In this document: positions 11,499 to 17,211 of the stretch, piece by piece
Numbering within the stretch: position 1 is the first letter of the stretch
Layout of the letters: every line of letters starts with the position of its first letter
Assembly (NCBI RefSeq): GCF_000264455.2
Contig: NC_017956.1
Location: forward strand, 1,099,501-1,163,500
Origin: Tistrella mobilis KA081020-065
GTDB lineage: Bacteria; Pseudomonadota; Alphaproteobacteria; Tistrellales; Tistrellaceae
Reading direction: 5' to 3'
DNA: 64,000 bases
Notes under the pieces: generated by a model
Told to the model about the DNA's origin: nothing
The model's input: the letters and a program-made list of their open reading frames with translations, nothing else
The model's database searches: none
Translations under genes and position numbers: made by a program

Positions 11499-12095
11499 AT
11501 GCCCTTCCAAACCGAGGTCCGCCCGCCGAGTTCGACGATCATGCTCACCGCGCTCCGGATGCTGGTCATGCAGCCGGCCGACAAGCACCGGGTGGGGGAG
11601 CGTCTGCTGCAGGATCTGGCGCGCATCGCGCCCAAGGCGGCAGAGCTGTGCGATCCGGCGGCGCGGGCCGAATTCGACCGCCGCGTGGTCATCGATCTCC
11701 GGCGCCTGCTGGTCGCAGGACTGATCCGGCGGGTTGGCGACGGCCTGCTCGGCATCACCGATCGCGGGCGCGAGGCGCTGAAGGAGAACCCGGAAGGGCT
11801 CGACGACACCGTATTGATGCGCTACCCGGAATTTCGTGCCCATCTGGCCCGGCGCTGCGGCCTGGTGATCGACCCGGCCGCGGGGCTGGACGGCGCGATC
11901 GAGCCGCCGGTCGAGGGCGGCGACGCGCCGATGCGCAAGGCGCCGGTGGTCCGCGAGCTGCAGGAAGGCTTCATCGCCTTCCTGGATGGCCAGACCGCGA
12001 CCGACAACCCCTATGAAACCGACACCCAGGCCTTCATCACCTGGGAAGAGGGCTATTGGGAGGCGGCAGGCATCGCCCGCAACGAGATGGCTTGA
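11499..12095 (+). CDS. Winged-helix protein with C-terminal Rmf/CrpP-like module
   Basis: A 198-residue protein from ATG 11499 (GAGG about nine bases upstream). Residues 15-105 look like a winged-helix domain of the Mrr N-terminal type: helix-rich STIMLTALRML, DLRRLLVAGLIRRVGDGLL and GITDRGREAL. The last 45 residues (GFIAFLDGQ, NPYETD, then ITWEEGYWEAAG) resemble the ribosome modulation factor/CrpP fold, whose family pattern is G-x-x-A-x-x-x-G, N/C-P-Y, W-x-x-G-W-x-x-A. Such modules bind ribosomes or inhibit gyrase in other bacteria; here the target is unknown. The joining of the two parts is an inference from residue patterns. Confidence 0.68.
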   Translation: MPFQTEVRPPSSTIMLTALRMLVMQPADKHRVGERLLQDLARIAPKAAELCDPAARAEFDRRVVIDLRRLLVAGLIRRVGDGLLGITDRGREALKENPEGLDDTVLMRYPEFRAHLARRCGLVIDPAAGLDGAIEPPVEGGDAPMRKAPVVRELQEGFIAFLDGQTATDNPYETDTQAFITWEEGYWEAAGIARNEMA

Positions 12096-12120
12096 GCACG
12101 ACACCATAGCCCTACATGCA

Positions 12121-12156
12121 AACGGGCCGCCCGGGGATGTCCCCGGGCGGCCCGTT
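12121..12156. terminator. Bidirectional terminator between convergent genes
   Basis: A perfect 16-base-pair stem: AACGGGCCGCCCGGGG (12121-12136) and its complement at 12141-12156, with loop ATGT. It separates the convergent winged-helix gene and metQ. T-rich flanks are short on both sides. Confidence 0.85.
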
Positions 12157-12176
12157 CTTCGAGATCTGGGGACGGA

Positions 12177-12965
12177 TCACCAGGCGACGACGAGCGCGCC
12201 CTTGTACTGCTCGTTGATCCAATCCTTGATCTTCTGGTCGTGATAAGCCTCGACCAGGGTCTTGGCCCAGGGGGCGTCGGCATCGACCTTGCGGACCGCG
12301 ATCACGTTGGCATAGGGCGACTCGGCCGCCTCGCGCGCGATCGGATCCTTCACCGGATCGAGCCCCGCCTCGACGGCGTAGTTGGTGTTCACGGCCGAGG
12401 CTGCGGTGTCGTCCAGCGAGCGCGGCAGCTGGGCGGCGTCGAGTTCGATGATCCGCAGGTTCTTCGGGTTCTCTGCGATGTCGAGCGGCGTGGCCTTGAG
12501 ACCCGCCCCCTCGCGCAGCTTCAGCACGCCCTGAGCCTGCAGCAGCAGCAGCGCGCGGCCGCCATTGGTCGGGTCGTTCGGGATGGCGACCGAATCGCCG
12601 TCCTTCAGCTCGGCCAGGCTCTTGATCTTCTTCGAATAGATGCCGAGCGGGAAGACCACGGTCTTGGCGATCGACACCAGACCATAGCCGCGATCGGCAT
12701 TCTGGTTGTCGAGATAGGGCTGGTGCTGGAACGAGTTCGCCTGGATATCGCCCGCGGCGAGCGCCTGGTTCGGCACGACATAGTCGCTGAACTCGATGAT
12801 GTCGATATCGAGGCCCTTCGCGGCGGCGATCGGCTTCACCTGCTCCAGGATCTGGGCATGGGGGCCGGGGGTCACGCCGATCTTGATCTCTTCGGCCTGT
12901 GCCGCACCGGCGGCGATGAGGCCGAGGATGGCGGCCGCGCCGCCCAATGTCTTCAGAATCCGCAT
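12177..12965 (-). CDS. metQ: Methionine ABC transporter substrate-binding protein (MetQ/NlpA family)
   Basis: MetQ captures methionine in the periplasm for the MetNI importer. The 262-residue product has a signal peptide ending AAGAAQA before EEIKIGV; no lipobox cysteine is present, so it should be soluble in the periplasm rather than a lipoprotein. NlpA-family signatures include KIGVTPGPHAQILE, EFSDYVVPNQAL, DIQANSFQHQPYL and the IPNDPTNGGRALLLLQ stretch. No metN or metI gene lies next to it in this window. A SAM-II riboswitch and a terminator lie in its 5' leader, so expression should fall when SAM is plentiful. Confidence 0.93.
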   Translation of the reverse strand: MRILKTLGGAAAILGLIAAGAAQAEEIKIGVTPGPHAQILEQVKPIAAAKGLDIDIIEFSDYVVPNQALAAGDIQANSFQHQPYLDNQNADRGYGLVSIAKTVVFPLGIYSKKIKSLAELKDGDSVAIPNDPTNGGRALLLLQAQGVLKLREGAGLKATPLDIAENPKNLRIIELDAAQLPRSLDDTAASAVNTNYAVEAGLDPVKDPIAREAAESPYANVIAVRKVDADAPWAKTLVEAYHDQKIKDWINEQYKGALVVAW

Positions 12966-13080
12966 CTGGACTGGTGTCCCTGCATCTTGTCCGTCGGATC
13001 GGGGCCACGGGGGCGGCTGCGACCCTGATCCCGTCCGGCCGCCTCACCCTTGCGGGAGACCTGCCGGACCAAACACGAAA

Positions 13081-13109
13081 AAACCCGCGTGACAGCGTCG
13101 CGCGGGTTT
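13081..13109 (-). terminator. Intrinsic terminator in the metQ leader (attenuator)
   Basis: On the minus strand AAACCCGCG-C-GAC (13109-13097) pairs with GTC-A-CGCGGGTTT (13093-13081) around a 3-base loop, followed by six T residues (13083-13078). It starts five bases after the riboswitch core, a position suited to transcriptional attenuation. Confidence 0.85.
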
Positions 13110-13113
13110 CCGA

Positions 13114-13173
13114 CCCCTCCGCTTTAGCTGCATTTGTAACGCGCCCGCAAGCTGTGGCTCAAATCGGCGCGAC
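13114..13173 (-). ncRNA. SAM-II riboswitch upstream of metQ
   Basis: Read on the minus strand, the region shows the compact SAM-II layout: P1 strand CGCGCC, then GATTTGAGCC, a loop ending CTTGC, the returning P1 strand GGCGCG, then TTACAAATGCAGCTAAA and a purine-rich tail GCGGAGGGG. The GATTT and AATGCAGCTAAA blocks are the most conserved parts of the metA-type element of alphaproteobacteria. It should bind S-adenosylmethionine. SAM-II elements often act on translation; the terminator immediately downstream here suggests transcriptional control. Confidence 0.85.
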
Positions 13174-13274
13174 AGGGGCACCCTAAAACACCGCCGCGCT
13201 TACGTCAATTGCCGATCGACAACACGGCAGCCATGTGGAAACCGCAGGCAATCCTGCCCGATTGCGAAACGGCA

Positions 13275-13304
13275 GCGGGCGCATGGCTTTCACCACGCGC
13301 CCGC
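13275..13304 (-). terminator. GC-rich hairpin after metY (possible terminator)
   Basis: GCGGGCGC (13275-13282) pairs with GCGCCCGC (13297-13304) across a 14-base loop, 28 bases beyond the metY stop on the minus strand. There is no clear T-tract, so it may be a weak or factor-dependent terminator. Confidence 0.4.
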
Positions 13305-13331
13305 CGCAGGCATTCCGCAGGGACCGGCCGA

Positions 13332-14630
13332 TCAGGCCGACGTCGCCGCCGCCAGCGCCTGTTCGATGTCGGCGATGATGTCGTCGACATGCTCGATGCC
13401 GATCGAGAGGCGGACATAGCCCGGGGTCACGCCCGAGGCCTTCTGCTCCTCTTCCGACAGCTGGCTGTGGGTGGTGGTGGCCGGGTGGATGGCCAGGCTG
13501 CGCGCATCGCCGATATTGGCGACATGGTAGAGCAGCTTCAGCGCCTCGATGAAGGCGCGGCCGGCCTCGGCGCCGCCCTTGATCTCGAAGCCGATCAGCG
13601 CGCCATAGCCGCCCTTCAGATACTTATCGGCGCGGGCGCGCGCCTCACCCTCGGCCAGACTCGGATGGGTGACGGTCAGCACCGCCGGGTGCTCCGACAG
13701 GAACTTGGCGACCAGGGTCGCGTTCTTGTTGTGCTCGCGCATGCGCAGCGGCAGCGTCTCGAGCCCCTGAATCGTCTGGAAGGCGTTGAAGGGCGAGGCG
13801 GCGCAACCCAGGTCGCGCAGCAGGGTGACGCGGGCCTTGATGATATAGGCAATGGGGCCGAGCGGCTTCACCGCCTGGGTCCAGACCGCGCCGTGATAGC
13901 TGGCATCGGGGGTGTTCAGCAGCGGCTGACGCTCAGGGAAGGCTTCCCAGTCGAAGGTGCCGCCGTCGATGATGATGCCGCCGATCGAGGTGCCGTGGCC
14001 GCCGATATACTTGGTGGTGGAATAGACCACCACGGCCGCGCCATGTTCAAGCGGCCGGGCGATGATCGGGGCGGCGGTGTTGTCGATGATCAGCGGGATG
14101 CCGAAGGACTTGCCGATTTCGGCAACCTCGGCGATCGGGAACACCCGGAGCTTCGGGTTGGGCAGGGTCTCGCCGTAATAGGCACGGGTGCGGTCGTCGG
14201 TGGCGCGGCGGAAATTCTCAGGATCCGACGGGTCGACGAAGCGGACCTCGATGCCCTGCTGGCGCAGCGTGTTGGCAAACAGGTTCCAGGTGCCGCCGTA
14301 AAGATCGGTCGAGGAGACGACATTGTCGCCCGCCTGGGCGAGGTTCTGGATCGCCAGCGCCGAGGCCGCCTGACCCGAAGAGACGGCGAGCGCCGCCACA
14401 CCGCCCTCGAGGGCGGCCAGGCGCTGCTCCAGCACGTCGGTGGTCGGGTTCATGATCCGGGTATAGATGTTGCCCAGCTCCGACAGCGCAAACAGATTGG
14501 CGGCCTTCGCGGTGCTTTCGAACTGATACGACGTCGTCTGATAGATCGGCACCGCCACCGCGCCGGTGGTGGGGTCCGCACGATAGCCCGCATGCAGAAC
14601 GGCCGTCTCGGGGTGACGGTACTGGGTCAT
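13332..14630 (-). CDS. metY: O-acetylhomoserine sulfhydrylase (aminocarboxypropyltransferase)
   Basis: This 432-residue PLP enzyme makes homocysteine from O-acetylhomoserine and sulfide, the direct sulfhydrylation route to methionine. It starts MTQYRHPETAVLHAGYRADP, contains the cofactor-contact run YTRIMNPTTDVLEQRLAALEGG, and the PLP-binding lysine lies in VVVYSTTKYIGGHG. The end HPATTTHSQLSEEEQKASGV is typical of MetY rather than cystathionine gamma-synthase. ATG 14630 has GGGAG nine bases upstream; the open frame extends upstream without homology. Its neighbour metQ shares the methionine theme but has its own riboswitch-controlled leader; I found no SAM-II core upstream of metY. Confidence 0.95.
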   Translation of the reverse strand: MTQYRHPETAVLHAGYRADPTTGAVAVPIYQTTSYQFESTAKAANLFALSELGNIYTRIMNPTTDVLEQRLAALEGGVAALAVSSGQAASALAIQNLAQAGDNVVSSTDLYGGTWNLFANTLRQQGIEVRFVDPSDPENFRRATDDRTRAYYGETLPNPKLRVFPIAEVAEIGKSFGIPLIIDNTAAPIIARPLEHGAAVVVYSTTKYIGGHGTSIGGIIIDGGTFDWEAFPERQPLLNTPDASYHGAVWTQAVKPLGPIAYIIKARVTLLRDLGCAASPFNAFQTIQGLETLPLRMREHNKNATLVAKFLSEHPAVLTVTHPSLAEGEARARADKYLKGGYGALIGFEIKGGAEAGRAFIEALKLLYHVANIGDARSLAIHPATTTHSQLSEEEQKASGVTPGYVRLSIGIEHVDDIIADIEQALAAATSA

Positions 14631-14768
14631 CTTGTCTCGCTCCCTGGATGGTGCCGGGCCCGGATCATGTCTTGAAGGGGGCAGTGCCGGCCCGTTGCGG
14701 CACTGTATATAAACGACACGCATTGTGGAACCGGCTTCAAACACAAAAAATCTTTGTCAATTTGGCAG

Positions 14769-14802
14769 AAAAAAGCTCCCGACGATGATGACCGCCGGGA
14801 GC
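14769..14802 (-). terminator. Terminator of the LeuA-family gene
   Basis: On the minus strand GCTCCCG (14802-14796) pairs with CGGGAGC (14781-14775), partly extended by inner pairs, followed by TTTTTT (14774-14769). It lies about 60 bases beyond the expected LeuA-like stop at 14861. Confidence 0.8.
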
Positions 14803-14860
14803 AGAGGGGCCGGGAGGCCCTGCGGGACAGGAAAGAGGACGCCTTGCGGCCTGCGGCAGC

Positions 14861-16074
14861 TCAGCCGGGCAGGCCGGTGCCGCTGTCGGCCACTTCGCGA
14901 TAGAGGGCGACCAGGGCGCCGTGATCGTTGAAGCGGTCGGGGTCGGATCGGCTGCCAGCCGGTCGCAGACCGCATCGATCTTGTCGATGTCGATCACCAC
15001 CCCGGCCTCGGCCAGGCGGCGGGTGATGGCGTTGCGCGGCGTGCCGCCGACCATGATCGCATTGGGGCGAAGCGCCGCCACCGGCCGCACCGGCCAGGCC
15101 TCGGCCGTGCGCACCCAGCCGAGATGGGTGGGGGCGGTGACGGTGCGGGCCTCGGTGCCGAGCAGCGGCTTGGTCGGCATCAGCGGCAGGCGGATCATCT
15201 CGCGCAGGGCATGGGCGGCCTCGATCACCGGCTCCAGCGCCACATCGGTCGCAAGCCCCATGCGCGGGCCGTTGAGCCGCAGCTGGGCGATCGCCTCTTC
15301 GAGTGCGGTGTTGCCGGCGCGCTCGCCGATGCCGCAGAGCGTCGCCTGGAAGCTGTCGGCGCCGGCTTCCAGCGCCGCCAGGGTGTTGGCGAGCGCCAGC
15401 CCCATATCGTCGTGGCAATGGGCCGAGAGGATCACGTCCGGACCGACCCAGGACCGTATGGCGCGGACCAGGGCGGCGAATTCATGGGGCAGGGCACAGC
15501 CGACCGTATCGGGGATCGCAACCGTGCGCGCGCCTGCTTCGACCGAGGCCTTGAGCAGGCGCTCCAGGAAGGGCAGGGAGCCCCGGGTGGCGTCTTCCGG
15601 GGCGACGGCGATGTCGTCGAACCCCAGAGAGGCCGCGTGGCGCACGCTGCGCACCGCCTCCTCAATCGCCTCTTCGGCGGTGATCCGGCGCTTGTGCTCC
15701 AGATGGATTTCCGAGCCGACCAGCAGGATCTCGATCTGGGCATTGCCGCTGGAGCCCAGCCCCTCGGCGATGATGTCGATGTCGCGTTCGGCGGCCCGGC
15801 AGAAGGCGCAGATCTTGCTTGCCCGCGGGCCCTGGGCCATTTCGCGGAAGGCTTCGAAATCCTCGCCCGACGAGGCCGGAAAACCGCCTTCGACCAGATC
15901 CAGCCCCAGCGCATCCAGCCGGCGGAACATCGCCACCTTCTGCTCGGCCGACATCACATTGCCCGGCGCCTGCTCGCCGTCGCGCAGCGTGGTATCGAAG
16001 ACCATCACCCGTCGCGGCTGAGGTGCGGTGGCGGGCTGGCGGATGTGAACGATGCCGTTCTCGGTGGTGTCCAT
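14861..16074 (-). pseudogene. LeuA-family alpha-acyl synthase with a 3' frameshift
   Basis: The product belongs to the HMGL-like TIM-barrel synthases (isopropylmalate, citramalate, homocitrate). From ATG 16074 it shows FDTTLRDGEQAPGN, which binds the 2-oxoacid and metal, and the metal ligands HCHDDMGLALAN. Near 14940 the frame breaks: the natural C terminus DRFNDHGALVALYREVADSG ending at TGA 14861 is read one frame away, after a GGGG run on the + strand that seems one base short. Unrepaired, translation runs on to 14737, through the terminator hairpin, adding about 65 unrelated residues. It is either a real mutation or a sequence error. The barrel itself is intact, so activity may remain. Exact substrate not determined. 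Confidence 0.72.
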
Positions 16075-16143
16075 GGCTTGCCCCGTCGCTGGCTGCTGCC
16101 GATCGTGCAGAACCCTTTGATCGTGGCGCGGGTCTGCATACAC

Positions 16144-16170
16144 AACCACTGGTACATATACCTGATGGTT
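16144..16170. promoter_or_regulatory. Imperfect dyad between LeuA-like and LysR genes
   Basis: The 210-base divergent region contains AACCA...TGGTT outer arms (16144-16148, 16166-16170) and a GGTA-CATA-TACC core. It looks like an operator for a dimeric regulator, possibly the adjacent LysR protein; this is only a pattern. Confidence 0.3.
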
Positions 16171-16284
16171 TTGTCGATCCAAAACTTACACGCGCCTTGC
16201 GCGATGATGCGGTCCCGGGATTGGCAGTCGGGGATCTGGGCGGTATCACAGCATGTCTGCACCGCCTTCCGAGGAGCTGCCCCC

Positions 16285-17211
16285 TTGATCGACCGGCTGG
16301 AGTTCCTGCTGGCCCTGTCCCGCGAACGTCATTTCGGCCGCGCCGCCCAGGCCTGCGGCGTGTCGCAGCCCACACTCTCGGCTGGGGTGAAGGCGCTGGA
16401 GGACATGCTCGGCACCATGCTGGTCCAGCGCGGCTCACGTTTTCGCGGCTTTACGCCGGAAGGTGAGCGGGTGCTGGACTGGGCGCGGCGCATCGTCGGG
16501 GATGCACGCTCGATGCGGCAGGAGATCGATGCGCTGAAGCGCGGCCTGTCGGGCACGCTCAGGATCGCGGTGATCCCGACCGCGCTGGGGATCACGCCGC
16601 GGCTGACCACCGGCTTCCGGATCCGCAACCCCCAGGTCCGTTTCGCCATACGAACCTGCACCTCCACCGAGGTGCTGCAGCTGGTCGATGATCTGGCGGT
16701 GGAGGCGGGCATCACCTATCTCGACAACGAACCGCTCGGCCGGGTGGGGACGGTGCCGCTGTATCGCGAGCGTTATCACCTGCTGACCGCCGCCGACAGC
16801 CCCGAGGGCGGCCGCGCCTCCATCGCCTGGGCCGAAGCCGCCGGGCTGCCGCTCTGCCTGCTCAGCCGCGACATGCAGAACCGCCGGATCATCGACGGCA
16901 TGCTGGCGGCCGCCGGCGGCGATGCGGCGCCGCTGCTCGAATCCAATTCGGTCTCGGTGCTCTCGGCTCATATCCGCACCACCCGCTGGTCCACGATCAT
17001 GCCGGTGGGGCTGGCCGAGGCGCTGGGTCTGGTGGGCGACGGCCGGATCAATGCCGTGCCGCTGGTCGATCCGGATGTGTCTCACCAGGTCGGACTGGTC
17101 GTACCCCAGCGTGAGCCGATGATGCCGCTGACCGCAGCCCTGGTCGCTGAAGCCCGCCGCCTGGTGGCCGCCGACAGCGTGTCGATGCCCCAATCCCGAT
17201 CGCGACGATAG
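16285..17211 (+). CDS. LysR-family regulator, probable regulator of the formate dehydrogenase operon
   Basis: A 308-residue LysR-type regulator. The winged helix-turn-helix is at residues 1-60 (RHFGRAAQACGVSQPTLSAGVKALEDMLG), and the effector domain starts near residue 90 at LSGTLRIAVIPTALG. TTG 16285 is chosen because GAGGAG lies seven bases upstream and it gives the usual N terminus. It is transcribed towards fdsG, 107 bases away. In Cupriavidus the LysR protein FdsR flanks and controls the fds operon, which suggests the same job here; the inducer would be formate or a related signal. Confidence 0.85.
   Translation: MIDRLEFLLALSRERHFGRAAQACGVSQPTLSAGVKALEDMLGTMLVQRGSRFRGFTPEGERVLDWARRIVGDARSMRQEIDALKRGLSGTLRIAVIPTALGITPRLTTGFRIRNPQVRFAIRTCTSTEVLQLVDDLAVEAGITYLDNEPLGRVGTVPLYRERYHLLTAADSPEGGRASIAWAEAAGLPLCLLSRDMQNRRIIDGMLAAAGGDAAPLLESNSVSVLSAHIRTTRWSTIMPVGLAEALGLVGDGRINAVPLVDPDVSHQVGLVVPQREPMMPLTAALVAEARRLVAADSVSMPQSRSRR

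Follow-up and report, generated by a model that had tools for sequence, protein, structure and literature searches.

The stretch of DNA analysed here, which we call the window, comprises 64,000 nucleotides of the genome of the alphaproteobacterium Tistrella mobilis KA081020-065 and holds, on its reverse strand, a metQ gene with a metY gene upstream of it and an RNA leader between the two (Table 1). The metQ product reaches 260.9 bits with TIGR00363 (MetQ/NlpA family, cut-off 228.85) and 317.4 bits with PF03180, and 279.1 bits, below the cut-off of 374, with the stricter MetQ subfamily model NF008285. The gene can keep the name of methionine-binding protein gene that a sequence-only reading of this DNA had given it. 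Its neighbourhood is unusual. Among the best 80 of 563 candidate MetQ loci, which come mostly from Rhizobium, Agrobacterium and Paracoccus and include flanks of at most 3 kb, 78 have a MetN or MetI homologue next to MetQ; this usual layout is absent at the window metQ. A tblastn search of the window gave no match to MetI and no metN adjoining metQ, the MetN matches being ATPase genes 11-13 kb off with 37-44% identity.

Table 1. Features of the metQ leader and related elements, in window coordinates unless a locus is named
Feature	Position	Strand	Basis
metY, just upstream of the metQ riboswitch	13332-14624	-	TIGR01326
Putative -35 element TTGACG	13203..13208	-	kept in three genomes; not in the consensus scan
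Putative -10 element TAGGGT	13180..13185	-	kept in three genomes; weak TATAAT match
SAM-II (SAM_alpha) aptamer, Rfam model span	13103..13180	-	RF00521 39.8 bits; R1 87.5 bits
Proposed antiterminator 5' side GUCGCGC, overlapping the P1 5' strand	13167..13173	-	folding of growing transcripts
P1 5' strand CGCGCC	13166..13171	-	pairs with 13140-13145; sub-type P1 covaries
Conserved loop GATTTGAGCCACAGCTTGC	13147..13165	-	sequence; loop ends conserved across the sub-type
P1 3' strand GGCGCG	13140..13145	-	pairs with 13166-13171; sub-type P1 covaries
Conserved GCTAAAGC	13121..13128	-	sequence
Intrinsic terminator	13078..13108	-	hairpin 13108-13082 and U tract 13083-13078
Proposed antiterminator 3' side GCGCGAC, overlapping the terminator 5' arm	13097..13103	-	folding
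metQ, methionine ABC transporter substrate-binding lipoprotein	12177..12965	-	TIGR00363, PF03180, open reading frames
metN-metI element, 77.5-kb contig C5	L155 4233-4164		RF00521 22 bits; R1 77.5 bits

The sequence-only reading had recognised a SAM-II riboswitch ahead of metQ, and the covariance search with the Rfam model that it had suggested as a check identifies one: RF00521 (SAM_alpha) matches with 39.8 bits against a gathering threshold of 36 (E 1.7e-5 with cmscan on the whole window; E 4.0e-7 in a whole-genome search). The core motifs it had named are also in place on the reverse strand, with GATTT starting at 13165, the returning strand of P1, and AATGCAGCTAAA ending at 13123. All six pairs of P1 can form, enclosing the GAUUUG...GCUUGC loop, and with GCUAAA lying 3' of P1 (13128-13123) the leader holds the full set of GAUUUG, GCUUGC and GCUAAA. 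The AAGC of GCTAAAGC may pair with the GCUU of the loop as the core of P2; the best match between loop and tail is GCC/GGU. P1 is absent from the minimum-energy fold of the whole leader, whose stability is no better than that of its shuffles (z -0.75). We infer that this aptamer would sense SAM. A model that we call R1, built from seven sequences of the sub-type described below (two being metN copies), gives the window element 87.5 bits, a score that is not independent, the window being one of the seven sources. No second aptamer was detected 3' of the window terminator, either with cmscan (E threshold 5) or in a scan of the window with R1, and SAM-II is likewise absent before metY, the metQ element being the sole SAM_alpha match in 11900-16500. 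The window metY thus has no SAM-II of its own, though elsewhere the sub-type precedes metY more often than any other gene. Low Rfam matches near the locus (SNORA77, ftsZ-DE, Bp2_287 and others) do not reach their own cut-offs and were not considered further. We also gave up a CCCC/GGGG pairing between the 5' end of the window leader and the tail, since it is altered in the sister genomes.

The strong stem and six T residues that had been described after the aptamer are there too. The hairpin 13108-13082, with eight pairs, one mismatch, three pairs and a loop of three, has a predicted energy of -17.1 kcal/mol (z -3.5; none of 200 shuffles equally good) and ends in six T at 13083-13078. Its distance from the core had been misjudged: the gap is 14 bases after GCTAAA, instead of the five or fewer claimed. 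A simple consensus scan of 12100-13340 returned no terminator and no promoter, and so missed this one; its stem rule does not accommodate a mismatched hairpin. The putative promoter elements TTGACG and TAGGGT are separated by a 17-base spacer, with TAGGGT sitting 8 bases 5' of P1. The metQ element is conserved in a second genome of the species and in another member of the genus, and across these three genomes and two species the sequence that starts with the P1 5' strand and runs beyond the terminator is identical, while most of the TTGACG-TAGGGT spacer and the bases between TAGGGT and P1 vary. A fixed block from P1 to the terminator next to a variable spacer would suit a promoter with its start just 5' of P1, and this pattern agrees with the SAM-II layout described by Corbino et al. 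in 2005 (PMC1273637), where a putative promoter lies just before P1.

Since metY, on the same strand, has its end at 13332 and thus 224 bases before the hairpin, the hairpin might also be taken as the 3' terminator of the metY transcript, next to an aptamer that would be a chance or decayed match. The aptamer scores above the Rfam cut-off, however, and a similar element followed by a terminator stands before metN-metI in three genomes, so that we regard this explanation as highly improbable.

The metQ element is one of several in its genome. RF00521 finds three elements above the cut-off and a fourth at 22 bits, their targets being metZ (60.1 bits), metK (TIGR01034), metQ and metN-metI. The metZ and metN-metI leaders carry terminator-like hairpins of -16.6 and -16.7 kcal/mol, respectively, each followed by a U tract, and the test that detects the metZ hairpin finds none in the metK leader. 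The metK element (L143 1879-1955, 39.0 bits) is present in a sister genome as well (L145). A weak short-type element of 27.6 bits on contig C2 (L269, around 1501-1563), in which GAGUUUG replaces GAUUUG, precedes short open frames and may be decayed. Four matches of 13.5-13.8 bits, obtained in the genome search at E up to 10, were set aside; at this threshold all 14 control genomes also match RF00521, none of them above the cut-off.

The sole NIL-domain MetN of the window's genome is encoded on contig C5, with metI next to it, behind the fourth of these elements. The same leader occurs in two further genomes (L153, L154), and both related genomes have one NIL-domain MetN each, behind that leader. 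The window's genome has metQ on one contig and metN-metI on another, both preceded by a riboswitch copy of their own, and in the sister genome G162 metN and metQ share one contig, 2.1 Mb apart. Thus, the genes of the transporter would be split between two sites, with the same kind of riboswitch at both, and the window MetQ would work with the MetNI of C5. Four MetQ-family proteins are encoded in this genome, and no RF00521 or R1 match of the genome lies beside the other three genes. Two of these proteins are encoded in tandem on contig C1 (L156, 3835805-3837581), with no adjoining SAM-II match.

Methionine transporters behind SAM-II are also found elsewhere. Five of the best 80 of 563 MetQ loci have the element, each before metN-metI-metQ; two of these are of the window's long type with a terminator (L134, L135) and three of a shorter type (L078, L129, L140), a sixth R1 match (L114, E 0.23) being left out of this count.

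We consider it likely, from covariance models and folding predictions, that the metQ element is a SAM-II riboswitch turning metQ off by transcription attenuation. The sequence-only reading had also proposed attenuation of metQ transcription; its SAM-II aptamer, terminator and target gene stand, and its dependence on SAM is at the level of predicted folding. When SAM is low, the GCGCGAC of the nascent terminator 5' arm would pair with the GUCGCGC of the P1 5' strand, so that the aptamer would open and the polymerase would continue into metQ. When SAM is high, P1 and the pseudoknot would be held by the ligand, leaving the terminator arm free, and the transcript would end near 13078 with a length of about 100 nt. 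Plentiful SAM would in this way mean less methionine uptake.

Folding of growing transcripts is consistent with such an exchange. In the unconstrained window transcript, the terminator 5' arm is predicted to occupy the P1 5' strand at lengths of 82-92 nt, with P1 lost or reduced meanwhile. The SAM-bound state was imposed as a folding constraint, with P1 held and the core kept unpaired, rather than computed. Forcing P1 raises the window terminator from 1.6 to 3.7 pairs at 94 nt, and at 96 nt it has 6.0 pairs either way; the predicted gap between the two states is narrow. In G162 the antiterminator persists to 98 nt; at that length 0.9 terminator pairs are predicted unconstrained versus 6.0 with P1 held. 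Once the leader is complete, the terminator prevails as the most stable fold whether or not P1 is held, which means that the switch would need to be kinetic. The proposed antiterminator is identical in all three copies and thus gives no material for a covariation test.

The formation of the window terminator at 96 nt whether or not P1 is held is also what one would expect from a real SAM sensor followed by a constitutive terminator, with control exerted through the promoter, RNA stability or translation. The metA leader of S. meliloti offers a precedent, its terminator reportedly not being predicted as SAM-responsive. On the other hand, the metQ start lies 113 nt past the U tract, so that the aptamer cannot directly mask the ribosome-binding site of metQ, and the terminator 5' arm is complementary to the P1 5' strand, all of which makes this arrangement unlikely in our view. 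The short RNA of about 100 nt could also be the main product, acting in trans, with the control of metQ being secondary. Such short RNAs are known for metZ and metA of S. meliloti, where the trans role is presented as speculation; for the metQ leader no target is known, and the sub-type is tied to downstream sulfur genes, which leaves this an improbable account.

Returning to attenuation, the particular exchange predicted for the window would not be shared by most relatives. Among 62 leaders of the sub-type, the spacer 3' of the aptamer is the main partner of the terminator arm in 39, followed by the P1 3' strand (seven), the P1 5' strand (five), the core (three) and the loop (two), with no partner in six; three of the five leaders with the P1 5'-strand exchange are the metQ element in the three genomes. 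A conserved antiterminator hairpin after GCUAAA was considered and rejected as a feature of the window, whose own spacer hairpin is no better than shuffles (fraction 0.17). Over the 62 leaders this hairpin has a mean of -9.2 kcal/mol versus -6.8 for shuffles, and in 17 it falls within the best 5% of the leader's own shuffles, related leaders being counted separately.

The window element belongs to a divergent form of SAM-II that is found in other genomes of the class as well. With R1 and strict filters, 159 of 385 alphaproteobacterial genomes have matches of E 0.01 or lower, a count that takes in canonical elements. Among the matches listed, 86 reach at least 48.6 bits; six of them belong to the window's genus, being its metQ and metN copies, and the other 80 come from 58 genomes under 31 family labels. 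The border of 48.6 bits was chosen by us, and scores continue below it with no gap (47.8, 46.8, 46.2 and lower). Given this continuity, and that the place in G195 at 46.8 bits is a canonical element with 69.2 bits by Rfam, the sub-type has no sharp border.

The first gene downstream of these 80 leaders, labelled by tblastn with window, genus and representative proteins on contigs that are in part short, is metY in 28, an SsuA-family transporter protein in 15, cysG in five, OsmC, metZ and metN-metI-metQ in four each, cysH in three, a sulfite/nitrite reductase and a RimK-like protein in two each, and metH, metF, a YeiH-type protein, a sulfate-binding protein, a methyltransferase and an EamA protein in one each, with seven left unlabelled. 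Some labels are weak, such as the OsmC of L258 (27% identity) and the CysH of L195 (44%, at 497 bases). The SsuA-family ABC transporter proteins (L190, L193, L218 and 12 others) possibly have a sulfur compound as their substrate. The RimK-like proteins, of the ATP-grasp type, are found at L230 and L262.

Terminators are a common property of the sub-type. Of 88 leaders (the 80, the six of the window's genus, and L134 and L135), 62 are followed by a terminator with an energy of -11 kcal/mol or lower, while the same level is reached in 39 of 440 shuffles and in 2 of 87 stretches taken from further downstream; leaving out the window's genus, the count is 56 of 82, and the other long-type leaders of methionine transporters have one in six of six cases (L222, L225, L229, L238, L134, L135). 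P1 is supported by covariation: across 98 distinct rows of an alignment that was fitted to the model and includes second, short elements, 98.1% of the cells are paired and six of six pairs show double changes, a level reached by none of 500 shuffles. P2 is the weakest point of the membership in SAM-II. Permutation tests of loop against tail, on 80 distinct leaders of the 88 after removal of three off-pattern and five duplicate ones, gave values at least as high in 153, 179 and 275 of 300 permutations for three tail lengths, and the longer canonical P2 is accordingly left without support in the sub-type, with no covariation signal in these 80 leaders. The short GCUU/AAGC core can pair and hardly varies across the sub-type.

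The sub-type differs from the Rfam consensus within the loop and 3' of GCUAAA, and Rfam passes just 11 of 20 sampled primary elements (every fourth of the 80), which could mean that it senses another ligand, e.g., SAH or another sulfur metabolite. GAUUUG, GCUUGC and GCUAAA are nevertheless retained in the window and in most members (exceptions include L248, L256 and L262), and we regard a change of ligand as improbable.

At 13 loci (L213, L217, L228, L239, L250, L252, L258, L263 and others) a second, shorter SAM-II-like element lies downstream. In these, GCUAAAGCG is often followed by a hairpin CCACGG..CCGUGG and next by a strand that is the complement of part of the loop (GGGC/GCCC; in G105 and G378, GAGGAUC/GAUCCUC); they may be a form of SAM-II with an inserted hairpin. 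The loop-tail test for them is weak, with 42 of 500 permutations as high in 18 rows, at least two of which are of the long type.

Most parts of this system have counterparts in the literature. The window element shares with the SAM-II/metA motif of Corbino et al. (RF00521, PMC1273637) the P1 stem, the GAUUUG loop, GCUUGC and GCUAAA, as well as the putative promoter just 5' of P1 and the terminator between aptamer and gene described there. It departs from that motif in its target, metQ, in its GCUAAAGCG tail and in the absence of a canonical CCGACC/GGUCGG-like P2, and its 39.8 bits compare with 87.7 for the best element of the class with RF00521. A terminator after SAM-II is ordinary in alphaproteobacteria, a methionine-transporter target less so, and such terminators are in print as predictions, PMC1273637 being among the sources. 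The S. meliloti metZ leader described by Scheuer et al. in 2022 (PMC9373788) combines, as the window does, SAM-II with an intrinsic terminator, is predicted to be an OFF switch, and yields an RNA of the expected size that supports the terminator; its target, in contrast, is biosynthetic. Tandem SAM-II and SAM-II/SAM-V leaders have been described, with 44 tandem SAM-II cases in PMC9481103, and some relatives are similar in having a second short element after the terminator, whereas the window leader has a single aptamer. In Bacillota, SAM-I before metNIQ likewise joins a SAM riboswitch to a methionine transporter, with a different aptamer class and in a different phylum; contiguous arrays are listed in PMC12452182. 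The SAM_alpha targets given in the regulon section of Leyn 2014 are metY, metA, metX, metC, hom and metW, within Rhizobiales and Rhodobacterales only. In searches of one open-access library we found no report of SAM-II before metQ, metNIQ, ssu or cys genes. The type of switch is known, and there seem to be few descriptions of it acting on sulfur-uptake genes.

The element is real, and the attenuation mechanism is probably right; its interest lies in its target, in the split transporter genes, and in a sub-type that Rfam recovers by half. For the broader reading, we see the arguments as evenly balanced: a divergent SAM-II sub-type, in at least 31 alphaproteobacterial family-level groups, would run a SAM-responsive sulfur-supply regulon, comprising methionine and sulfonate-type uptake, sulfate uptake and reduction, siroheme synthesis and metY/Z/H/F, mostly by attenuation, and in this genus the methionine transporter would be split into distant metQ and metN-metI, linked by two copies of the same riboswitch. 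If this is true, the current Rfam cut-off misses roughly every second member of a sub-type (11 of the 20 sampled lie above it, and the metN-metI copy has 22 bits), and the split transporter with its twin riboswitches would offer a clean test of whether two distant transcripts are tuned to one SAM level. SAM-II would then be a broader sensor of sulfur supply in alphaproteobacteria, reaching beyond a few genes of methionine biosynthesis.
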